Source: an uncultured Erythrobacter sp.
Lineage (GTDB): Bacteria > Pseudomonadota > Alphaproteobacteria > Sphingomonadales > Sphingomonadaceae
Assembly: GCF_947497915.1 (NCBI RefSeq)
Contig: NZ_CANMIJ010000001.1
Location: 1,919,611-1,983,610, forward strand
Length of the DNA: 64,000 nucleotides
Direction: 5' to 3'
This document shows positions 53,028-64,000 of the stretch, piece after piece. Every line of letters begins with the position of its first letter. The first letter of the stretch is position 1. The position numbers and the translations under genes are program-made. The notes beneath the pieces are model-generated. The model ran no database searches and had not been told where the DNA came from. It saw nothing but the letters and a program-made list of their open reading frames with translations.

Positions 53028-53270
53028 AAAAGACGCGTCTCTGATTGGCCTGCCACGGGGCAAAGCTGTGCGCATGCGGGCCAAGTCGAGGCCGGAAACA
53101 GCAGCGCATTGAAGGAAGAACGGTGGAGCCTAGACGGCTGGTCCTCTTTTGCAACCCTGTCCAGCATGCGCCCTTGACCCTTGCCAGTCCGCTATTTTCG
53201 TCTGATAGAGATGACCACAACACAAAGACAATTTGTGGGTCGCGCTGTTTTCAAGGGGGGATTTAGCACC

Positions 53271-54626
53271 ATGGCCGTATCCGATCACGTAGACTTGGCA
53301 ACATTCATGGAGGGCGTGAAAAAGCGCAATCCGGGCCAGACCGAATTCATTCAAGCTGTGCACGAAGTTGCGCAGGACATTTTTGAATTCATGTCCGACA
53401 AAGTCGAATATCACGAAGCGCAAATTCTGCGCCGCATTGCAGAACCAGACCGCGTCGTCTCGTTCCGCGTGTGCTGGGAAGATGACAATCATAACATCCG
53501 TGTTCAACGCGGTTGGCGGGTTCAAAACAACAACGCCATTGGCCCCTATAAAGGGGGCATCCGCTTCCACCCGAGCGTGACGGAAAGCGTCCTGAAATTC
53601 CTCGCATTTGAACAGACGTTCAAAAACTCGCTCACCGGCCTGCCTATGGGCGGCGGCAAAGGCGGCGCGAACTTCAACCCGCGTGGCAAAAGCGACGGTG
53701 AAGTGATGCGTTTCTGCCAAAGCTTTATGTCCGAACTTTATCGCCACATCGGCCCGAACACCGATGTTCCTGCCGGTGATATCGGCGTAGGCGGACGCGA
53801 GATTGGATACATGTTTGGCCAATACAAACGCCTGACCAATCGCTGGGAAGGCGTTCTTACCGGCAAAGGTCAGGAATATGGCGGATCGCAAATGCGGCCC
53901 GAGGCGACCGGATATGGCGCCGTCTATTTCCTTCAAAACATGCTCAAACATCAAGGCAATGATGTCGAAGGGCACAGCGCCGTAATCTCTGGATCAGGCA
54001 ATGTTGCGACCCATGCTGCGGAGAAAATCACCCAGCTTGGCGGGAAAGTGCTGACACTGTCGGATTCCGGCGGATTCATCCACGATCCTGACGGGATTGA
54101 TCAGGAAAAAATCGACTGGGTTAAACACCTCAAGACCGTAGAACGCGGCCGAATCAGCGAATATGTCGATGAGTTCAAAGGAGCGACTTATCACGAGGGC
54201 AAGCGCCCTTGGGATGTCGCCTGTGACCTTGCATTGCCTTGCGCCACACAGAACGAGTTGAACGAAGACGAAGCGAAATCGCTGGTCAGCAATGGCTGCA
54301 AAGGCGTTTCCGAAGGCGCGAATATGCCGACCACTCTGGAAGGCGTAAAAGTCTTCCACGATGCCAAAATCCTCTACGGCCCTGGCAAAGCGGCCAATGC
54401 TGGCGGCGTCGCAGTTTCAGGCCTCGAAATGAGCCAGAACTCGGAGCGTATCAGTTGGAATCAGGAACGCCTTGGCGACATGCTGACCGATCTGATGGAG
54501 GGCATCCATGAGAAGTGCACCGAATATGGCGAGCAAGATGGCGGCTATGTCGACTATGTGAAGGGTGCGAACATCGCAGGCTTCAAAAAAGTCGCTGACG
54601 CGATGCTGGCATTCGGCGTCGTCTAA
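53271..54626 (+). CDS. gdhA: NADP-type glutamate dehydrogenase
   Basis: A 451-residue hexameric-type glutamate dehydrogenase that forms glutamate from 2-oxoglutarate and ammonia. Catalytic and substrate motifs: GPYKGGIRFHPSV, GLPMGGGKGGANF with the active lysine, DVPAGDIGVG, and the Rossmann motif ISGSGNVATHA. A GGGGGG-rich ribosome site precedes the ATG. Divergent from the BCCT gene, with a 243-base gap; both relate to nitrogen or osmotic balance. Confidence 0.95.
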   Translation: MAVSDHVDLATFMEGVKKRNPGQTEFIQAVHEVAQDIFEFMSDKVEYHEAQILRRIAEPDRVVSFRVCWEDDNHNIRVQRGWRVQNNNAIGPYKGGIRFHPSVTESVLKFLAFEQTFKNSLTGLPMGGGKGGANFNPRGKSDGEVMRFCQSFMSELYRHIGPNTDVPAGDIGVGGREIGYMFGQYKRLTNRWEGVLTGKGQEYGGSQMRPEATGYGAVYFLQNMLKHQGNDVEGHSAVISGSGNVATHAAEKITQLGGKVLTLSDSGGFIHDPDGIDQEKIDWVKHLKTVERGRISEYVDEFKGATYHEGKRPWDVACDLALPCATQNELNEDEAKSLVSNGCKGVSEGANMPTTLEGVKVFHDAKILYGPGKAANAGGVAVSGLEMSQNSERISWNQERLGDMLTDLMEGIHEKCTEYGEQDGGYVDYVKGANIAGFKKVADAMLAFGVV

Positions 54627-54647
54627 GCACTAACATCAAGATCAAAT

Positions 54648-54683
54648 GGGGAGCGGTCCAGTTCGGATCGTTCCCCTTTTTTT
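54648..54683 (+). terminator. Terminator of gdhA
   Basis: GGGGAGCGGTCC pairs with GGATCGTTCCCC (two G-T pairs) around AGTTC, followed by seven T. It lies 21 bases after the stop. Confidence 0.94.
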
Positions 54684-54685
54684 GC

Positions 54686-55621
54686 CTATTGCACACCCAT
54701 CATCTGGGCCTGCCGTCGCAATTCGTCAGCCTGATCCGGATTGGCGGCAATCGCTGCGCCCAACGCGGCTTTGGCCTTCTCCGGCTCACCCAAAGTCATG
54801 CGGCTGCGCATCAGCATCACCCAGCCATCGGGGTTCTGCGGCTCAGTTTGAAGCCGCGCCTCTAGCTGCGCGACCATGCCCTCTGCCATGGTGCGCTGTT
54901 CGCTCGGCGGGATTGATCCGGCCGCAGCCAGCTCTGCCTCGCTCGGTCCGCGAACATTCCCAGTGGTTGGAGCATTCGCAACTGGCATCCGGCCATCGCC
55001 GACGGCGGCGAGGCGCTGTGTCACATCGATATCGTTGATCGCGCCGACCTGTTGGATGGTCTCGACAAGGTTCTGCTCCCACGGCGCACCGGGAGGCGTA
55101 TCGGAAAGCAGATCAAGCCACGCCGCAATCGCGCCCGCATGATCGCCATCGACATCTTTCTTCACCGCCATGAAATACCGCGCGCGCGGATCGCTATCAT
55201 CCAGCACAAGCGCCTTTTCGAACGCCTCCATTGCTGCTGCGGGCAGCGGATCGGCATCGGGGGCAGACGTGTCATTCGCCATCACCCGCGCTTCGCCCAG
55301 CGCAGACCATAGGATCGCAGCGCCCGCATCAATCTCAACAGCTTTCTCATAAGCTGCGGCGGCATCGGCAAATTCGCCCTGTTCGAAATAAGCGTAGGCA
55401 AGATCGCCCCACGCGCCCGCATCGTCGCCAGATGCTTCGGCCAGCTTTCGCAGCTCTTCGATTGTAGGCTCATCGTTCCCGGCAACTAGATCGGCTGTCT
55501 CGCCGCCGTCCGCATCCATCACATTATATGCAACCGACCCGGCAGCCAGCAGAGCCGCTGCACCAAGTAAAATCCAGCCAGCTTTCGAGCTGCCTTCAGT
55601 TTTGCTTTCAGCTTCGGTCAT
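54686..55621 (-). CDS. TPR protein, CcmI/CycH-like
   Basis: A protein of about 311 residues with one N-terminal membrane helix (about residues 14-32) and a periplasmic part made of tetratricopeptide repeats (WGDLAYAYFEQGEFADAAAAYEKA and later copies), ending in a conserved GWVMLMRSRMTLGEPEKA repeat. This is the layout of the TPR part of CcmI, which hands apocytochrome c to the haem ligase. The start is not sure: ATG at 55621 has GGAT seven bases ahead, ATG at 55639 has none. No other ccm gene is next to it, but it sits beside a multihaem cytochrome cluster. Confidence 0.8.
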   Translation of the reverse strand: MTEAESKTEGSSKAGWILLGAAALLAAGSVAYNVMDADGGETADLVAGNDEPTIEELRKLAEASGDDAGAWGDLAYAYFEQGEFADAAAAYEKAVEIDAGAAILWSALGEARVMANDTSAPDADPLPAAAMEAFEKALVLDDSDPRARYFMAVKKDVDGDHAGAIAAWLDLLSDTPPGAPWEQNLVETIQQVGAINDIDVTQRLAAVGDGRMPVANAPTTGNVRGPSEAELAAAGSIPPSEQRTMAEGMVAQLEARLQTEPQNPDGWVMLMRSRMTLGEPEKAKAALGAAIAANPDQADELRRQAQMMGVQ

Positions 55622-55747
55622 TTCGTTATCCGATCCCATGCGCTTTGCGCTAACATCGCGTGGAGAATTGGGCAATTCTCTCTAGTATCTTTGCGCCACT
55701 TCCTTATGGTGATCGAAGGTGTAAATCTATCCAAAGGGGGGGATAGA

Positions 55748-58192
55748 TTGTCGGACTTGTATAAAGTCGCCATTGTTGGCTCCGGTCCTGCCGGTTTGAG
55801 TGCAGCCGCGCACGCGGCGGCGCTCGGCATGAGCCATGTTCTGCTTGAGAAAACAGACCACCTCTCTGACACGATTTACAAATACCAGAAGGGCAAGCAC
55901 GTCATGGCGACGCCCTCCAATCTGGTGCTGCGCAGTGACTTTGATTTCGACGCGGGCAAACGCGAGACGATCCTTGGCACTTGGGATGAACAGGCCGCCG
56001 CGCAAAATGTGAACGTCATGATGAATGCAGAGGTTGCCAAAGTAGAAGGCGACAAAGGCGATTTCGCGATCACGTTGAAAAATGGCGAGACCGTTCGTGC
56101 GGAAACCATTGTTCTGTCCATCGGGACACAGGGCAACCCAAACATGCTGCGCTGCCCCGGTGCCGACGATCCGATGATCCAGTACCAGCTCGATGATCCC
56201 GGCGAATATTTCGACGAGCATATCACCGTCGTTGGATCTGGCGATGCGGGCATTGAGAATGCGCTTGGCCTCGCCGCTGATGATGCGCAGCGCAATGTTG
56301 TCACCATCCTAAATCGGCGTGATAGTTTCGCCCGCGCAAAGGCAGCCAATGTAACTCTGCTGGAAGAAGCAGAACAAGAAGGCCGGATCAGCGTGCGCCG
56401 CGAAACCAGCCCGGCCGAGGTGAAGAACGGCGAATTGGTGCTCGAAACACGCGACGGTCAGGAAACCATTCCGTGTAACCGGATCATCGCGCGCACCGGT
56501 TCCCAGCCCCCGCGCGGCTTTGTCGAGGCGATGGGCATCGAGTTCACTAGCGAAGAACGCAGCGCCTTTCCGAAACTGACGCCCGCTTTTGAAACGACCA
56601 AGCCCGGCATTCATGTGATCGGCGCGCTCGCTGGGTATCCGTTAATCAAGCACTGTATGAATCAGGGCTATGACGTGATTGAATTTCTCAATGGCAATGA
56701 GGAATTGAAGCCTGCAGACGAGCCAATTCTTGCCGAGAAGTTCGGCGTGCTGCCCGGCAATCACGATGTCGAATACTGGCTCGGCGTATTTGGCGGCAAT
56801 GTTTCCATCCTTGAAGAGCTTTCCACGCTGCAACTGCGCGAGTTGATGCTTGATAGCGCGGTCCATGCTTACGAGGCTGGCGATGTCATCTTCACCCGCA
56901 ACGCGCCGGGATCGTCGATGTTCGCGATTGCGGAGGGCTCTGTCGCGGTGGAGGTCAATCCCGATGATCCGTCCATAACCGTCCCGATTGAGCAAGGATC
57001 GATCTTTGGCGAGGTTGGCCTGATCTCTGGCCGCCGCCGTGGCGCAACCATCCGCGCGGCTGAACCCGTTGTCGCGATTGAGCTCTCACGTACCGCCGCG
57101 CTCAAATTGATTGCGACCTCGCCCGGTGCAGCGCGCGCCGTGAACCGCATTTCTGTAGAGCGGCAATTGCTGCAAATGTTCGGGTCTGGGCTGACTGAGG
57201 AAGACGTCGCGCCGCTGGTCGAAAGCAGCGAAGTGATGGATATCCGCGCAGGCCAAGTGATCATCGAAGAAGGCGCGGACGACAAAGACATTTTCATCAT
57301 CCGCCGCGGATCAATGATTGTCGAGAAAGCCATTGGCGGACGGCCTGTGTTCCTGTCTTACTTGCCCGCTGGCAGCTATGTCGGCGAAATGGCGGTGATC
57401 GACGGATCGGCACGCACTGCCACGGTGAAAGCTGCAATCAAATCTGAAGTTATTCGCCTTCCCGGCGAAGGCTTTATGGAATTGATGGAGCGCAACCCCC
57501 GCGTCCGCGAACAAGCCCTGTCCGACATGGCAAACCGCCGCGAGATCAACGCCTTTATCGAAAGCCGCAAAGACGATTTCGACGGCGCGGTCGATATGTA
57601 TTCCGAAACCGCATCTTTCCTTGTCGATCAAGGTTTGGGCGAGGCCACCGACGTGCTGCTGATCGATGAGAAGCTCTGCATTGGCTGTGACAATTGCGAA
57701 AGCGCCTGCGCCGATGCGCATGAAGGTCTCTCGCGGCTCGACCGGGAAGCAGGCAAGACCTACGCGCATCTGCACGTACCGACATCATGCCGTCACTGCG
57801 AACACCCGCATTGCATGGCCGATTGCCCGCCCAACGCGATCAAGCGCGGCCCGGACGGCGAAGTGTTCATCGACGAGACCTGCATCGGCTGCGGCAATTG
57901 CCAGCGCAACTGCCCTTACGGGGTGATCCGTATGGACCCGAAACCGCCGAAAAAACCATCGCTGTTCCAATGGCTGCTGTTTGGCAGCGGCCCCGGCCCG
58001 GGCGAGGCATCGGCCAAATGGCGCAAGACCAATGGCGATCCTGAACAGCCGAAACAGGCGATCAAATGCGATATGTGCGCGGGCATCAAGGGCGGCCCAG
58101 CCTGTGTGCGCGCCTGTCCAACTGGTGCCGCTATCCGCGTGTCACCCGACAAATTCCTGACCTTCACCAAGATCACCGAGGATGTTGAGTGA
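55748..58192 (+). CDS. Flavoprotein - dual cNMP-binding - 4x[4Fe-4S] fusion oxidoreductase
   Basis: An 814-residue cytoplasmic protein with four parts. (1) Residues 1-330: thioredoxin-reductase-like flavoprotein with VAIVGSGPAGLSAAA and the NAD(P)H motif VVGSGDAGIENA (about 160); no CxxC is present, as in YpdA-type enzymes. (2) cNMP domain at about 360-480 with FGEVGLISG...RGAT. (3) cNMP domain at about 490-610 with VGEMAVIDG...RTAT. (4) Residues 640-814: four [4Fe-4S] sites with the DmsB/NrfC-type spacing (CIGCDNCESAC, CRHCEHPHCMADC, CIGCGNCQRNC, CDMC-x8-CVRAC). The TTG at 55748 follows AAAGGGGGG; an ATG at 55706 lacks a ribosome site. No export signal. Confidence 0.9.
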   Translation: MSDLYKVAIVGSGPAGLSAAAHAAALGMSHVLLEKTDHLSDTIYKYQKGKHVMATPSNLVLRSDFDFDAGKRETILGTWDEQAAAQNVNVMMNAEVAKVEGDKGDFAITLKNGETVRAETIVLSIGTQGNPNMLRCPGADDPMIQYQLDDPGEYFDEHITVVGSGDAGIENALGLAADDAQRNVVTILNRRDSFARAKAANVTLLEEAEQEGRISVRRETSPAEVKNGELVLETRDGQETIPCNRIIARTGSQPPRGFVEAMGIEFTSEERSAFPKLTPAFETTKPGIHVIGALAGYPLIKHCMNQGYDVIEFLNGNEELKPADEPILAEKFGVLPGNHDVEYWLGVFGGNVSILEELSTLQLRELMLDSAVHAYEAGDVIFTRNAPGSSMFAIAEGSVAVEVNPDDPSITVPIEQGSIFGEVGLISGRRRGATIRAAEPVVAIELSRTAALKLIATSPGAARAVNRISVERQLLQMFGSGLTEEDVAPLVESSEVMDIRAGQVIIEEGADDKDIFIIRRGSMIVEKAIGGRPVFLSYLPAGSYVGEMAVIDGSARTATVKAAIKSEVIRLPGEGFMELMERNPRVREQALSDMANRREINAFIESRKDDFDGAVDMYSETASFLVDQGLGEATDVLLIDEKLCIGCDNCESACADAHEGLSRLDREAGKTYAHLHVPTSCRHCEHPHCMADCPPNAIKRGPDGEVFIDETCIGCGNCQRNCPYGVIRMDPKPPKKPSLFQWLLFGSGPGPGEASAKWRKTNGDPEQPKQAIKCDMCAGIKGGPACVRACPTGAAIRVSPDKFLTFTKITEDVE

Positions 58193-59055
58193 TGGCCAGC
58201 AAGCCGCAAAACAAATTTCAGCAGGACGAGAAGCGGCGCGATGCCGATCACGTCAGCTTCTTAAAGCACAAAAATTGGCGCTGGTTGAAAATCGCGTTGG
58301 TGCTCTGCATTGTGACGGGTGTCGGCTATGCTCTGATTGATCAGGAACCGCGACCTAATGGCGGCAGCTGGTACGGCTATACGCTGGGCACAATCGGCGT
58401 CGTTCTCATCATATGGCTATCGCTGCTGGGCGTGCGAAAGCGCAACATTTCTACCGGGCACTGGAGCCTGAAAGCATGGACGAGCGCGCATGTATGGCTT
58501 GGCCTATCGCTCATCGTGATTGGAACTCTGCACACGGGTTTTCAGATCGGATGGAACGTCCATACGCTCGCTTATGTTCTAATGCTGCTGGTGATCATCA
58601 CCGGCATTTACGGGGTTTGGGCGTACGCCACCCTGCCCGCAGAGCTTAGCTCAAACCGCAAAGAGTTGACGCGTGGAGAGATGATTGATGCGCTGACGGC
58701 TATTGATCGCCAGCTTGATAGCGCAGCCCAGCCGCTGGACCGGGCACAATCAGATCTGGTTATCGCCGCGCTCGATCAAGATGTATTTTACGGTGGGGCA
58801 TTTGGCCGCCTTACCGGCTCCTATCCTGGCTGCGCCACCGCCAAAGCACTCAAATCAATGCCTGCCGGAGGAGATGAAGCCGAAGAGCGTGTTGTTACAC
58901 TGCTTACCCGCCGATCCGAACAACTGGCCCAAATCCGCCGCCACCTGCGCATCCGTGCGCTGCTCGAAGTGTGGCTCTTCATCCATATTCCGGCGACCAT
59001 CGCATTGATCGCCGCACTGCTCGCGCATGTCGTGAGCGTGTTCTATTATTGGTGA
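58192..59055 (+). CDS. Membrane protein, probable diheme cytochrome b
   Basis: A 287-residue protein with five likely membrane helices. Two helices each hold a pair of histidines exactly 14 residues apart: H-VWLGLSLIVIGTL-H (about residue 103) and H-IPATIALIAALLA-H near the C-terminus. This H-x13-H spacing is the bis-histidine haem pattern of cytochrome bc1 b and NarI-like subunits, so two b haems across the membrane are likely. A charged helical loop (about 155-250) separates them. It starts at ATG within TGATG of the upstream FeS gene, so it is the natural membrane partner of that protein. I do not recognise a named family. Confidence 0.85.
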   Translation: MASKPQNKFQQDEKRRDADHVSFLKHKNWRWLKIALVLCIVTGVGYALIDQEPRPNGGSWYGYTLGTIGVVLIIWLSLLGVRKRNISTGHWSLKAWTSAHVWLGLSLIVIGTLHTGFQIGWNVHTLAYVLMLLVIITGIYGVWAYATLPAELSSNRKELTRGEMIDALTAIDRQLDSAAQPLDRAQSDLVIAALDQDVFYGGAFGRLTGSYPGCATAKALKSMPAGGDEAEERVVTLLTRRSEQLAQIRRHLRIRALLEVWLFIHIPATIALIAALLAHVVSVFYYW

Positions 59056-59065
59056 GGGTAAGAGC

Positions 59066-60823
59066 ATGGCGTTCCTGATCCGCACCGTAGATTTCACCGC
59101 CGCCGGGCGGGAGATTGTGCGCGATCGCACGCTTGACCAATCAGAGCTGACGATTGGCCGCGCGACCAGCAACGACATTCACCTGCCTGACCTCGCCGTT
59201 GAGCAGCACCACGTCCGCATTCACGAAGCGCCCGATGGCACTTTGATGATTGAAAGCGTCGGCGGGCTTGGTTTTGGTATTGATGGCAAGACCGAGAACA
59301 ACGCCGAAATCGCGCCTAATGCTGGCGGGGAATTGTCGCTCGGATCATCACGGCTAACGATTGCCCGCGATGAAACGACCAGCATTACGATCAAACAGGC
59401 CGAAACCAGCGACACCAAAGATGTGCTGCGCGGCTTTGCTTTGGCGAGCGCCCTGCCCAGCAAACGGATCATGTCATGGGCGTTTGCGGCAGTTATCCTG
59501 ATCGCGCTGCTTTCGATCCCAGTGTTCACGCACTTGACGCGAGACCCGATCGAGAATGACCCTGACAGCGATTTGCCCGGACAGGTTGTGTTCGACAGCA
59601 CTTGGAGTACTGGCGAGTTAAGCCTTGCCCACCACCAGCTCGAGGAAAATTGCGAGGCGTGCCACGTCACGCCGTTCGTGTCGGTTCAGGATGCGACGTG
59701 CCTTACCTGCCACGAGGAGCTGGGCGAACACGCGGAAACTCCTCGGCTCGCAAAGGGGATGCCCCCCTTCAGCAGCGGCGATGCGATCCAGTGGAAGATC
59801 GCCGAAAGCTTTGGCAAAGAAGGCCCGCTGGGCTGCGTAAACTGCCACACCGAACACGAAGGCCCCGTGAAGCAAGAACCGGCGAGCCAGCAATTCTGCT
59901 CTGATTGCCACAACGATCTCGATACGCGCCTGACCGATACGTCGCTAGGCAATGCGCATGATTTTGGCGAAAAGCATCCACAATTTCGCCCGACATTCTA
60001 CACCAAACTGGCCGCTGATGACCCAATGCGCGTGTCGCTGGATGATAATCCAGTTGAGTTGAGCGGACTGATTTTCCCGCACGACATCCATATGAGCGAG
60101 CAAGGCGGCGTCGCCCGCATGGCCGTGAGCATCGGCAAGTATGGCGCGGCGCTGGAATGCAGCGATTGCCATAACGAAACGGACGATGAGGTAGGCTTCC
60201 AGCCGGTTGAGATGGAGGCATCCTGCGAAAGCTGCCACAGCCTCGTGTCCGGCCGCTCTGGGTCTGGCTTCACCAGCTTGCGTCACGGCGATGTTGACGA
60301 TCTTCGCGAAGACTTGCGCAATGTTACCCGTGGTTCGCGTCCCGCAGCATCCAGCGGACGATCACGCCCAGGACAATTCGCGCAAGGCCGCCGCTATTAC
60401 TCCAATTTCGGACGCCCATTTGGCGCGTATCTCTCGATCAGCAACGCGCTCGGCCCCAATGGTGTGTGCGGTGAATGCCATTTGCCGACGACCACGAACG
60501 GCGTTGCCGACGTCATGCCCGTCAATCTGCCGGATCAGTTCCTAATGCATGGCTATTTCGATCACAAAGCGCATGAGGATGAGACCTGCGTAAGCTGCCA
60601 TAAAGCTGGTACTTCAAGCGAAGCCAGCGATCTGCTAATCCCAGATCTCGCCAGCTGCCGCGATTGTCATAAGGGCGAAGCGGCAGTCAAAACTGAAAAG
60701 ATCGTGCCATCGGGTTGCGCAATGTGCCACGCCTATCACACACCGGCCAAGCCATGGGCACCGGAGCCGGACGATGAATTGCCGGCCAATCTGGTCGCCA
60801 TACTCGAAGGGATAAAGCGCTGA
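59066..60823 (+). CDS. FHA domain - decahaem cytochrome c membrane protein
   Basis: A 585-residue protein. Residues 1-108 form an FHA domain (LTIGRATSNDIHLPDLAVEQ, then HHVRI), which binds phospho-threonine in the cytoplasm. A membrane helix lies at about 136-155. The rest is periplasmic and carries ten CxxCH haem motifs: CEACH, CLTCH, CVNCH, CSDCH, CSDCH, CESCH, CGECH, CVSCH, CRDCH, CAMCH. There is no cleaved signal; the internal helix would act as anchor with the N-terminus inside. Ten bases after the cytochrome b gene. Confidence 0.93.
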   Translation: MAFLIRTVDFTAAGREIVRDRTLDQSELTIGRATSNDIHLPDLAVEQHHVRIHEAPDGTLMIESVGGLGFGIDGKTENNAEIAPNAGGELSLGSSRLTIARDETTSITIKQAETSDTKDVLRGFALASALPSKRIMSWAFAAVILIALLSIPVFTHLTRDPIENDPDSDLPGQVVFDSTWSTGELSLAHHQLEENCEACHVTPFVSVQDATCLTCHEELGEHAETPRLAKGMPPFSSGDAIQWKIAESFGKEGPLGCVNCHTEHEGPVKQEPASQQFCSDCHNDLDTRLTDTSLGNAHDFGEKHPQFRPTFYTKLAADDPMRVSLDDNPVELSGLIFPHDIHMSEQGGVARMAVSIGKYGAALECSDCHNETDDEVGFQPVEMEASCESCHSLVSGRSGSGFTSLRHGDVDDLREDLRNVTRGSRPAASSGRSRPGQFAQGRRYYSNFGRPFGAYLSISNALGPNGVCGECHLPTTTNGVADVMPVNLPDQFLMHGYFDHKAHEDETCVSCHKAGTSSEASDLLIPDLASCRDCHKGEAAVKTEKIVPSGCAMCHAYHTPAKPWAPEPDDELPANLVAILEGIKR

Positions 60824-60825
60824 GG

Positions 60826-61695
60826 ATGGGAGACACCAAACCGGCGCTTTTGATTGCGCAGATTACCGATATTCATATCGGTTTCGATCCGAGCGCGGGC
60901 GAGGAAGAGTTTAACTATCGCCGCTTTCTGGATGTGCGTGATCATATCCTTGCCCAAGACGTGCTGCCTGACATTCTGATCCTGTCCGGCGATTTGGCCG
61001 ATGGCGGCGATCCGCAATGCTATGACCGGCTGCGCGTGGCCGTGAAAGACCTGCCCTTTCCCGTCTATCCGATGACGGGCAATCACGACACGCGTGAGGT
61101 ATTGGTCAACGCATTTCCGGGCTTTGAGGATGAAGACGGTTTCGTGCAATACGCCGTTGAGCTTGATGGCTTCAGAGTGCTGTGCATCGACTCTCTGGAT
61201 GAGGGGCGCCATGGCGGCGGCTTTTGCGAGAAACGTGCGGCTTGGGTCGCGCGCGAATTGGACGCGCATCCCGATACGCCGACGATGATTTTCCTCCACC
61301 ACCCGCCTGTTGTGGCGGGCATCGACTGGATGGACCCGAAGACGAGCGAGCCGTGGTACAAGCGTTTTCACGAAACAGTGGCGGGACGCAGCCAGATCGT
61401 AAGCATTGGTTGCGGGCATCTGCACCGCCCCGTGTTCTCAGCGGTCGCAAGCATACCGCTTAGCGTAACGCCTGCCGTTGCCCCTGCTGTTACGCTTGAC
61501 CTCAGGCCGGTTGATACCGAAATCGCCGACGAACGCGGCATTGTTGACGCAGAGCCGCCATTTTACAGTCTCCACCGCTGGCATGACGATACCCTCGTTA
61601 CGCATCTCCAGCCGGTTGGCGAATGGCAAACGCTCGCGCGCTATGGCGACAATCTGAAACCGATGATGCAAGGGCTGCTCGACGAGCGATCCTGA
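60826..61695 (+). CDS. CpdA-like metallophosphoesterase
   Basis: A 289-residue calcineurin-like phosphoesterase. Metal-binding motifs are in order: QITDIHIG, LSGDLAD, MTGNHDTRE, FLHHPP and CGHLHRP. This set and the length match CpdA (class III 3',5'-cAMP phosphodiesterase) and related enzymes. It starts two bases after the decahaem gene, in the same operon as a protein with two cyclic-nucleotide-binding domains, so cyclic nucleotide turnover is the likely role. No signal peptide. Confidence 0.9.
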   Translation: MGDTKPALLIAQITDIHIGFDPSAGEEEFNYRRFLDVRDHILAQDVLPDILILSGDLADGGDPQCYDRLRVAVKDLPFPVYPMTGNHDTREVLVNAFPGFEDEDGFVQYAVELDGFRVLCIDSLDEGRHGGGFCEKRAAWVARELDAHPDTPTMIFLHHPPVVAGIDWMDPKTSEPWYKRFHETVAGRSQIVSIGCGHLHRPVFSAVASIPLSVTPAVAPAVTLDLRPVDTEIADERGIVDAEPPFYSLHRWHDDTLVTHLQPVGEWQTLARYGDNLKPMMQGLLDERS

Positions 61696-61734
61696 TCAGG
61701 CAGCTTACTGCGTGTCCACCGACAGCCGTCTCAC

Positions 61735-64000
61735 CTACTCTCCGGTGAAATCGTGCTCACGGCGACGCGCATTTTTTCGCGCGTTTTGCGGTGCGCTATC
61801 GAGATTTGCCCCCATCCAAGCATTCATGTCGACATCATCGGAAACCTTCCATGGAATGCCCGAGCGGGTCATGAAAAGCTTCTCCATTTCAGGCCGCGTA
61901 AATGGCCGCGATCCGAGCCTGCCGAACACCGCCATCTGACCGCCGGTTTCATCCACGGCGCGGTCTCTGTCGATCCCTTTGGACAGCGAGATGGCCGGTG
62001 CAGATGTCTTCGCAAAGGCCACCAATTCAGGCACTGGTTTCGGACTGAAGCCATAGAAATTGCGTTGGCTGTCCGGGCTGGTCAGCTGAAGCACTTTCAT
62101 ACCGTTGCGACCATCGGCGACATAGGCAAACAGCGAAGCATTGGTTGAGGCAACAATCACGTCCTCGGCATCGTTCAGCGTGCCGCCCAGCGTGACTCTC
62201 TGCGAGATTACTGGTGCACGCGGGCGCGTTACGTCGATTATGACAAGGCCATCATTCTTAGCCGCGACATAGGCATATGTTCGGGCGACATAGATGCGGC
62301 GCGCATCGGCCAAAGCCACCGCACCTTCTGGCACTGATACCGGATTGCGCATGTCGGTGACATCGAACAGCTTCACGCCCTGTGCATCCGTTACCCAGAG
62401 ATAACGGAACTGGATCGTACTGGCTCGCGCATCCGATAGCTGGCGCACTGCCGCGACTTTGGGCGCGCTTGGATCAGCGAGATCGACCACGACAAGGCCG
62501 CGATCTGCTGTCACAAACGCGACTTCGCCAGCCAAATGGATATGCGATGCACCGTTCAAAAGACCGTCAGGGTTCCACGCGGTGCTACCATCGGCGAACA
62601 CTTTGCGATCCAGATTGTTGTTGCGAAATTCGCCATCGGCCAGCGTGTTGACGTTGACCAGAACCAGACCTTCGCTCGCATCGGTGATTACCGCGTAATT
62701 GTAGATCGGCAGGAATGCTTGCTCCTGATTGATTTCGCGCAGTTCTGCTGTGCTGCGGGTCGGCGCGATTGGCTGGTTCGTCGCCAGCGCCATGCAAGTC
62801 GCGTTGACTGTATCGACATGCGTATCATGGCCAAGCGGCGAGAACGGCGCTGTGATGATCCGCTCCGACACGCCTTTGTTCGCAATCGAGGCCACGTCAT
62901 ACGCACGGAAGCCGCCCTTGCCCTCCGCAACGAACATATATTCGCCGCGCAGTTGCAAGCAGCCGACACGGTCGCCCGTGCCCTCATGTGTATTGACGAA
63001 CTCCTCGAACGGTTTTGTTTCACCGCTCAACTCATCGTCAAACGCTTGCCCGCGCACCCAGTCTTTTAACTCGCGGCCGTTCTTGTCGACGTGGAGCCCC
63101 CAATAATCGGGATAGGCGTATTTGTGCAGATACGACCCGATAACGGCTTGTGGCTCTTCATATTCGGTAACACGAACGGCGGTGAAGCCGTCTTCTTGAC
63201 CGGTCCAGGCGTGCATCCCGACAAAGTTCACATAATTCGTGCCGAGCAGCAGCAGCTGCGACATAATGGCGTTGTTGTCCTCTTTTTCGGAGAGGTGGCA
63301 GTCCGAACAACCCTTTGTCTCCGTACCGCGCACGGTGTGCGGGAAATGCGGCGCGAAGGCTTGCGAGGAGAAGCCGATAGCACTGATCGGCGGCTGCTGC
63401 ACATAGATGCGTTCACGGTTGATATTGGTCGATGACAGAACCAGTGCCGAGGATGAACGCACCGGAGCGGTCTGGTTGCCTTTGGTCGTCTGGTGCTTGC
63501 CAAGCTGGAACATCTGATCGCGCGCAACCTGAGGGTTGTAGGTCGCAAAATTGCGGGTCTCGCCGCCTTCATAGCGGTGCGACTTGGTTTTCCAGTTCGC
63601 CTCAATCGGCAGGTGGCACCCGCCGCAACTGGTCGTCCATGATAGGTGACACGTGAAACACGCCATCTCCGGATCTTGGTGCGCGCGGTCGTCCTCTTCG
63701 ACGCCGGTGCCAAATTCAAATTTGCCTGTTTCCGCGCCATATTTGCTCATCAATTTGGCGCGCGCCGCTTTGCCATTGAAAGCGGGCGTTTCGGGATCAA
63801 CCGAGTCTTTGACGAGGCTGACTTCCCACTCAAGCTCTGGGTCCACAATCGAACGCTGCATCAGCTTGCGCGACCCATCGCCATTGTCGATCCATTCAAA
63901 CCGGCGCTTGCCATCCGGATTGCGCAGCAGCGCAAGGTCATGGCCCTTTGGCGGAGCAGCAGGGCCGCTGGTGCGCAGGGTTGGGTATGCGTCCGGGGTG
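61735..64000 (-). CDS. Multihaem LVIVD-repeat protein (5' end outside window)
   Basis: At least 755 residues; the frame stays open to the window edge, so an ATG at 63861 is not the true start. The first third has three CxxCH sites (CFTCH, CGGCH, CSDCH). The last half has LVIVD-type beta-propeller repeats (LVVVDLADPSAPKV, VKLFDVTDMRNPV, LVIIDVTRPRAPV). A secreted or outer-surface location is expected for such proteins, but the signal is not visible here. It converges on the phosphoesterase gene with 39 bases between, and is likely part of the same redox system. Confidence 0.88.
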   Translation of the reverse strand, partial: TPDAYPTLRTSGPAAPPKGHDLALLRNPDGKRRFEWIDNGDGSRKLMQRSIVDPELEWEVSLVKDSVDPETPAFNGKAARAKLMSKYGAETGKFEFGTGVEEDDRAHQDPEMACFTCHLSWTTSCGGCHLPIEANWKTKSHRYEGGETRNFATYNPQVARDQMFQLGKHQTTKGNQTAPVRSSSALVLSSTNINRERIYVQQPPISAIGFSSQAFAPHFPHTVRGTETKGCSDCHLSEKEDNNAIMSQLLLLGTNYVNFVGMHAWTGQEDGFTAVRVTEYEEPQAVIGSYLHKYAYPDYWGLHVDKNGRELKDWVRGQAFDDELSGETKPFEEFVNTHEGTGDRVGCLQLRGEYMFVAEGKGGFRAYDVASIANKGVSERIITAPFSPLGHDTHVDTVNATCMALATNQPIAPTRSTAELREINQEQAFLPIYNYAVITDASEGLVLVNVNTLADGEFRNNNLDRKVFADGSTAWNPDGLLNGASHIHLAGEVAFVTADRGLVVVDLADPSAPKVAAVRQLSDARASTIQFRYLWVTDAQGVKLFDVTDMRNPVSVPEGAVALADARRIYVARTYAYVAAKNDGLVIIDVTRPRAPVISQRVTLGGTLNDAEDVIVASTNASLFAYVADGRNGMKVLQLTSPDSQRNFYGFSPKPVPELVAFAKTSAPAISLSKGIDRDRAVDETGGQMAVFGRLGSRPFTRPEMEKLFMTRSGIPWKVSDDVDMNAWMGANLDSAPQNARKNARRREHDFTGE

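Follow-up and report, generated by a model that had tools for sequence, protein, structure and literature searches.

At the end of a 64,000-nucleotide stretch of DNA from an uncultured Erythrobacter sp. (hereafter the window: bases 1919611-1983610 of its contig, in a 2.9 Mb genome), four genes on the plus strand, A, B, C and D, face a fifth, E, that runs off the window's edge. An earlier note, made from the letters of this DNA, had read the five as a candidate transmembrane electron conduit with built-in cyclic-nucleotide and phospho-protein control. The closest named relatives are Erythrobacter-like, with a top identity of 90% in A (among the best 80 of 523 confirmed relatives). The genes, and the domains recognised in A and C, are as follows (aa, amino acids; cNMP, cyclic nucleoside monophosphate; FAD, flavin adenine dinucleotide; TM, transmembrane; AF2, AlphaFold2).

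55748..58192, plus strand: A, flavoprotein with two cNMP domains and 4x[4Fe-4S], 814 aa, predicted cytoplasmic, TTG start (Pfam, NCBIfam; start placed by homologues and the Shine-Dalgarno sequence)
55748..56680, plus strand: in A, FAD and NAD(P)H-type two-dinucleotide-binding domain, YpdA/thioredoxin-reductase-like, approximately residues 1-311 (PF13738 at 9-292)
56867..57118, plus strand: in A, cNMP-binding domain 1, residues 374-457, phosphate cassette FGEVGLISGRRRGAT (PF00027)
57230..57500, plus strand: in A, cNMP-binding domain 2, approximately residues 495-584, phosphate cassette GEMAVIDGSARTAT (second PF00027 stretch)
57656..58162, plus strand: in A, HycB/HydN-like 4x[4Fe-4S] domain, residues 637-805 (Pfam, PDB 7z0s_B)
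58192..59055, plus strand: B, predicted dihaem cytochrome b, 287 aa, about five TM helices, two H-x13-H pairs (conserved His, hydropathy, AF2 helices)
59066..60823, plus strand: C, membrane-anchored decahaem cytochrome c with an N-terminal FHA-like domain, 585 aa (CXXCH counts, Pfam)
59120..59368, plus strand: in C, FHA/YscD-like domain, predicted cytoplasmic, with a degenerate phosphothreonine pocket (PF16697, PF00498, pocket residues)
60826..61695, plus strand: D, calcineurin-like phosphoesterase of the SpdA/CpdA group, 289 aa (PF00149, NCBIfam)
61735..64000 and beyond the window edge, minus strand: E, decahaem cytochrome c with an LVIVD beta-propeller, of which the C-terminal 754 of 1378 aa lie in the window

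A and B overlap by one base, and the B/C and C/D gaps measure 10 and 2 bases; given this spacing on one strand, A-B-C-D looks like one operon. A Shine-Dalgarno-like AAGGGGG precedes the TTG start of A. E is convergent to these genes and lies outside the operon, in a minus-strand unit that extends past the window edge. The gene set of the earlier note does recur in relatives with its order kept; in the window it comprises a four-gene operon and a convergent unit that the edge cuts, and the chain as first described was incomplete: the barrel protein POR, the HbpS-like GLC and the four-haem C554 are encoded beyond the edge. The minus-strand run reads C554, GLC, POR, E, with E last. C554 (506 aa) matches PF13435 and has four CXXCH motifs and one wider-spaced motif; GLC (650 aa) contains two stretches resembling the haem-binding HbpS family; POR (620 aa) is a predicted AlgE-like barrel; and of the ten CXXCH motifs encoded by the whole E gene (L002:7346-11482) three fall within the window. 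A small secreted-looking protein is encoded near GLC at 11 loci.

We compared gene order in two locus sets: 26 loci (the window's own and 25 relatives) from 289 genomes of the window's class, chosen by C, and the best 80 of the 523 confirmed A relatives in the named genome collection, chosen by A. The bait is thus present by construction, C in the 26 class-sample loci and A in the 80 named loci. Wherever a name is given the named loci are from Sphingomonadales. Residue counts given below for A, B, C and E cover every sufficiently long homologue from the 106 loci, and the alignments covered part of the loci (A1, 22 sequences; A2, 22; A4, 26; A5, 26; A6, 25; A7, 16). A, B and C are contiguous on one strand at 100 of the 106 loci: the gene caller finds 22/26 and 76/80, and tblastn adds L050 and L100, in which over-long frames had masked B. 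At L088, L094 and L122 the run is interrupted by contig ends; at L052 A comes after E in one run; and at L054 and L056 A sits on a separate contig, with A of the L054 genome (G178) also found just after E. Furthermore, 13 of the 26 class-sample loci read A-B-C-GLC-POR-E in this order on one strand, and POR adjoins E at 18/18 class-sample and 51/57 named loci showing E. In having a gene for a predicted outer-membrane beta-barrel beside a multihaem gene, the outer module shares a feature of porin–cytochrome complexes.

The genes are also inherited together. In the class sample (n=289; E-value limits of 1e-10 for C and 1e-60 for A and E), C is present in 26 genomes, A in the same 26 and E in 20, all within those 26; in one of the 20 (G007) E is a contig-edge fragment. 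In the family sample (n=149; limit for C 1e-20), A is present in 52 genomes, C in the identical 52 and E in 53, the sole E-only genome being 67% complete. Among the 52, A and E lie within 15 kb of each other in 26, between 21 kb and 2.2 Mb apart on the same contig in 15 (more than 390 kb in ten of these) and on different contigs in 11. Similarly, 23 named loci lack E in the stretch examined, and all nine of their genomes that were searched have E elsewhere; the three of these that were read show C554-GLC-POR-E runs. While the Fisher values for co-occurrence are extreme, the genomes are related and not independent, and the stronger argument is that A and E co-occur even when unlinked. For the same reason we consider that two modules, an inner A-B-C(-D) and an outer C554-GLC-POR-E, travel together. 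Homologues mostly apart in other genomes, the outcome that the earlier note named as refuting its reading, are thus not what is found. One could still see five unrelated redox and signalling genes adjacent by accident, since E lies on the opposite strand, and both D and a nearby cyclase (see below) are lineage-restricted. This we find barely credible: the conserved A-B-C order and the nearly identical distributions of A, C and E, even in genomes in which A and E are unlinked, lead us to reject chance adjacency of A, B, C and E. The data support A, B, C and E as a real functional unit, and a trans-envelope redox system of two modules is well supported.

The domain content that had been assigned to A, B and C from the letters is borne out by Pfam, NCBIfam and motif counts. 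A matches PF13738 (9.1e-33), PF00027 (3.9e-33, two stretches) and 4Fe-4S dicluster domains. Its flavin domain, with PDB relatives 7a76 and 7a7b, scores 125.4 bits against TIGR04018, below the cut-off of 339.9, and the CxxC redox pair is absent from it (cysteine inventory, 103 sequences). The FAD and NAD(P) glycines are invariant or kept in 102/103 homologues, and a second arginine of the NAD(P) loop, R191, is kept in 27/103. The two cNMP domains claimed for A hold up well: PF00027 scores 113.7 bits against a cut-off of 27.5, the cassette pattern G-E...R-x-[AS]-[TS] is found, and the key pocket residues are conserved throughout, with G421, E422, R431 and T434 of domain 1 and G546, E547 and R556 of domain 2 each kept in 103/103. 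Several of the remaining cassette positions vary among homologues, most of them in domain 2. Judging from these residues, both sites are very probably genuine binding sites; the residue after the cassette arginine is mostly Gly in the first domain and mostly Thr or Ser in the second, a pattern that does not settle cAMP versus cGMP. The iron–sulfur part contains 16 cysteines in four sets, invariant in 103/103, and residues 637-796 find formate hydrogenlyase subunit 2 (7z0s_B) as the best PDB match. We saw no signal peptide in A.

B carries its histidine pairs, H100-x13-H114 and H265-x13-H279, in two TM helices (hydropathy and AF2 model, pLDDT – the predicted local distance difference test score – 81.7), and H100, H114, H124, H265, H279 and R84 are invariant in 104/104 homologues. 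The predicted helix positions would place H100 and H265 nearer one face, with H114 and H279 nearer the opposite one, which would fit two stacked haems. In two genomes of one distant genus outside the class, A and B are fused into one protein (1123 aa in one genome, 1118 aa in the other); the B part of the 1123-aa protein is 30% identical to the window's B (E-value 5e-46). As both genomes belong to one genus, the two fusions probably represent one event.

Pairs of the H-x13-H type in two helices are typical of the ferric-reductase/NOX superfamily. This raises the possibility of a NOX-like generator in which O2 on the outer side of the cytoplasmic membrane takes up the electrons, yielding superoxide or peroxide for signalling or for iron or manganese chemistry. 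A weak Ferric_reduct match (15.5 bits against a cut-off of 28 for the window's B; 6/26 family members at an E-value of 0.1, best 0.0023) points the same way, as do the many named hosts in aerobic genera. We nevertheless regard this as highly improbable: such an enzyme needs no decahaem C, no E and no barrel, and no oxygen-reaction site was identified. The B family also matches PF01292, the b561/hydrogenase-cytochrome-b family (25/26 at an E-value of 0.1, best 3e-7; 18.6 bits against a cut-off of 30.1 for the window's B), a family in which certain known proteins exchange electrons with quinone. Since multihaem chains are in principle reversible, E could oxidise an external or periplasmic donor and electrons could travel inward through C and B to A, and on to NAD(P)+ or the quinone pool. 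This reversed route seems improbable to us, though less so than the oxygen-directed one: uphill reduction of NAD(P)+ needs an energy input that no part seen supplies, and no quinone site was identified, with no search aimed at one.

C has ten CXXCH motifs in all 99 homologues longer than 500 aa, a single strong TM peak at residues 135-153 and matches to Pfam cytochrome c3/c7 models. Its N-terminus matches PF16697 (1.2e-5) and narrowly misses PF00498 (19.7 bits against a cut-off of 20.7), and FHA matches are present in 18 of 22 family members at an E-value of 0.01. The Gly-Arg pair is kept in 101/101 homologues (R32 in 101/101), Ser or Thr at position 46 in only 9/101, and the complete Arg/Ser-Thr/Asn phosphothreonine pocket, the canonical FHA set, in 3/101. 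As this pocket is so rarely complete, phospho-protein control through the FHA domain of C, which the earlier note had proposed, is not supported in that form; we would instead treat the FHA-like domain as a docking domain.

The earlier note had also placed a CpdA-like phosphodiesterase in the operon. D is indeed a phosphoesterase of this kind, with a PF00149 match above the cut-off (8.3e-15) and calcineurin-like metal motifs in 72/72 homologues by loose patterns, but its scores against the NCBIfam equivalogs, 128.8 bits for SpdA (cut-off 400) and 68.5 for CpdA (cut-off 225), leave it outside both. Moreover, D is present at 3/26 class-sample loci as compared to 70/80 named loci, and thus belongs mainly to Sphingomonadales, the window's lineage, rather than to the system as a whole. 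A potential source of the signal lies nearby: a CHASE2 class III cyclase whose catalytic motifs are intact heads the minus-strand run upstream of C554 (L002:18314-19900 and L057:1-639), together with a putative FecR-like gene (no Pfam match at 0.01), with a gap of about 780 bases between the FecR-like and C554 genes in the window's genome. Such a cyclase is found at one class-sample locus, the window's own, and at five of the 80 named loci, where it is upstream of either A or the TPR gene; in G289 a longer cyclase-like open reading frame (ORF; 112 bits) is close to one of the copies of A. At these frequencies we reject cyclase plus phosphodiesterase as a dedicated circuit in general and regard the pairing as a local feature, although a looser link may exist.

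Among E homologues of at least 1150 aa, 70 of 71 have ten haem motifs. The best NCBIfam match of E is ExtM (NF040943; 3.9e-15, 55.2 bits against a cut-off of 800). Between families, main-segment identity is highest for E (60-67%, as compared to 44-54% for A and 29-35% for C), and this high conservation suggests a specific reaction. The AF2 model of POR, of low confidence (mean pLDDT 65.2), has 18 strands of at least three residues, as compared to 26 for MtrB-type barrels, and resembles the AlgE/OprD-type 18-strand transport barrels; Alginate_exp matches 3 of 25 members. Both observations would suit a periplasmic terminal reductase, in which POR is a channel for substrate or product, and E and GLC form a substrate-specific multihaem reductase fed by A-B-C. 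A barrel together with multihaem proteins also fits a trans-outer-membrane complex, and an N-terminal lipobox is found in 4 of 21 long GLC ORFs, including those of the window's and a sister genome, many ORF starts being over-extended; neither point is decisive. We consider this periplasmic arrangement unlikely, yet the most serious competitor to the route that we favour.

That route is electron transfer across both membranes, from A through B and C to the outer module, under cNMP gating, and we think it somewhat probable. A would accept electrons from NAD(P)H on FAD, a donor suggested by the fold of A, and its four [4Fe-4S] clusters would hand them to B, which would carry them over the cytoplasmic membrane to C, whose decahaem domain would lie in the periplasm. 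In flavoprotein–cytochrome b systems electrons usually flow outward in this manner, from which we infer the direction. Co-inheritance of the modules points to hand-over from C to E: C554, GLC, POR and E would make up an oxidoreductase that ends the chain at the outer membrane or within it, with E most likely reducing an extracellular or periplasmic substrate. The position of the cNMP domains between the flavin and iron–sulfur parts suggests that cyclic nucleotide bound to both probably gates electron entry, and the operon phosphoesterase, usual in Sphingomonadales, may trim this signal. A more specific form we put forward only tentatively and with some doubt: in Alphaproteobacteria that are mostly aerobic, NAD(P)H would drive, and cyclic nucleotides would gate, an exporter that sends electrons past the quinone pool and along multihaem proteins of the periplasm to a decahaem-propeller reductase in the outer membrane.

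The outer module is not the only cytochrome partner found with the inner one. M5, a five-haem c554-like cytochrome, is present in 5/6 inner-module genomes without E as compared to 1/20 with E, which would fit an alternative terminus. In three mapped loci (L043, L045 and L056) M5 has a conserved partner, P535, which looks barrel-like from its sequence. M5 is present in 23 of the 289 class genomes, its sequence being the query or 57-68% identical to it in 15 of these; one genome (G160) has M5 together with A and E, and 17 have M5 without A. We therefore consider the pairing of M5 with the inner module optional rather than dedicated, and we reject M5 and E as strict alternatives.

Several observations weigh against the gated outward route. 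The evidence for it is computational, drawn from sequences and predicted models. On the input side, the uneven conservation of R191 does not decide between NADPH and NADH, the window's B falls below the cut-off of both Pfam models that it matches (Ferric_reduct and PF01292), a PDB search with the AF2 model of B gave no clear structural match, and the cyclase is so rarely near (1/26 and 5/80) that a dedicated signal source is not established. On the output side, the E profile found no credible PDB relative to indicate where E lies or what it does; the conservation of E would be expected of a substrate-specific enzyme as much as of a wire; and POR, being AlgE/OprD-like and not demonstrably MtrB-like, could be a substrate pore. 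Nor is the distribution perfect: six of the 26 inner-module class genomes lack E (in one, G025, the assembly is 86% complete and the contig breaks off within GLC), and of the ten genomes with A among the 349 of the phylum sample, four, the two with fused A and B among them, are outside the class and E is absent from all four, although one contig ends after GLC-POR. The 17/23 M5 genomes without A show that a cytochrome found with the inner module also occurs apart from it, and 'different contigs' in draft genomes may still be near neighbours.

By analogy, the system would work as a conduit for electrons across the envelope whose entry resembles NOX and FdnHI, though we place it within none of the named families taken as a whole. 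With the FRD/NOX superfamily it would share cytosolic NAD(P)H-flavin input and two b haems on H-x13-H pairs in two TM helices, but in place of an FNR-type domain its flavin part is YpdA/TrxR-like and is joined to two cNMP domains and four [4Fe-4S] clusters, its predicted output is a decahaem cytochrome and an outer-membrane module, and Ferric_reduct remains below cut-off in the window's B. The porin–cytochrome conduits (Mtr/Mto/Pio, Geobacter Omb-Oma-Omc and Ext) likewise combine inner-membrane cytochrome entry, multihaem cytochromes of the periplasm and the outer membrane, and a beta-barrel; their entry, however, is a quinol oxidase (CymA, CbcL) rather than a cytoplasmic flavoprotein/iron–sulfur subunit with cNMP domains, and here the barrel is AlgE-like, with 18 predicted strands, and E carries a propeller and is partnered by an HbpS-like protein. 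The Geobacter CbcL type functionally joins a dihaem b to a c7-type multihaem domain, whereas B and C are separate and would be fed by a cytosolic flavoprotein. FdnH-FdnI and HycB offer the closest parallel for the iron–sulfur part, a 4x[4Fe-4S] ferredoxin-like unit that docks on a dihaem b, and 7z0s_B is its top match; unlike these, A is fused to flavin and cNMP domains, shows no signal peptide and has no catalytic formate or hydrogen subunit. Finally, the likeness of E to ExtM, a cytochrome of selenite/tellurite reduction, is limited to that best NCBIfam score: 55.2 of 800 bits, with the best stretch spanning 51 residues around haem motifs.

In a public Sphingobium record the genes carry generic names: cyclic nucleotide-binding domain-containing protein, hypothetical protein, cytochrome c3 family protein, metallophosphoesterase and multiheme c-type cytochrome. 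In line with the earlier note, searches of open-licence PubMed Central literature gave no description of this gene set in the titles and abstract openings of the papers listed, those on the LVIVD repeat included; a keyword search of the main text of an outer-membrane cytochrome survey (PMC11475568) gave no mention of Sphingomon-, Erythrobacter or Alphaproteobacteria. If the two-module reading is right, Sphingomonadales and other Alphaproteobacteria would possess a widespread extra trans-envelope electron route, and the gating would be a direct case of second-messenger control over electron flux at the enzyme level; if the exporter form holds, cells could discharge or exploit the reducing power of the cytosol at their surface as needed. 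Since the modules are co-inherited even when unlinked, cultured strains such as Sphingobium herbicidovorans MH allow a direct test of the order of the chain and of whether E depends on A.

As for the surroundings, A is flanked at window positions 53181-55675 by a gene for glutamate dehydrogenase and a TPR gene in divergent orientation. The former, named by eye, is near 21/80 named loci and the latter near 64/80, and on a Sphingopyxis indica plasmid both adjoin the outer module. Genes resembling those of cbb3-oxidase assembly, also named by eye, lie less than 10 kb upstream of A at a few loci (CcoG at 4/80, a copper P-type ATPase at 5/80, HemN at 6/80), namely at L110, L111 and a few related loci, which hints at a low-oxygen context. 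In 101 stretches upstream of A, best sites with at most two mismatches number 10 for FNR and 14 for CRP, as compared to about 5 and 6 in mononucleotide shuffles, a roughly twofold excess that is too weak to call. Divergent from the cyclase, a large plus-strand run of repeat-rich surface-type proteins occupies L057:1214-12338, followed at L057:12354-14531 by a putative LysM/FecR-like protein and a putative CHASE2 histidine kinase. Both modules can reside on large plasmids (L168 and L169): Sphingobium herbicidovorans MH has the inner and outer modules on one plasmid, 12 Sphingobium plasmid records carry A and E together, and one Sphingopyxis plasmid carries E with no A match on that plasmid.

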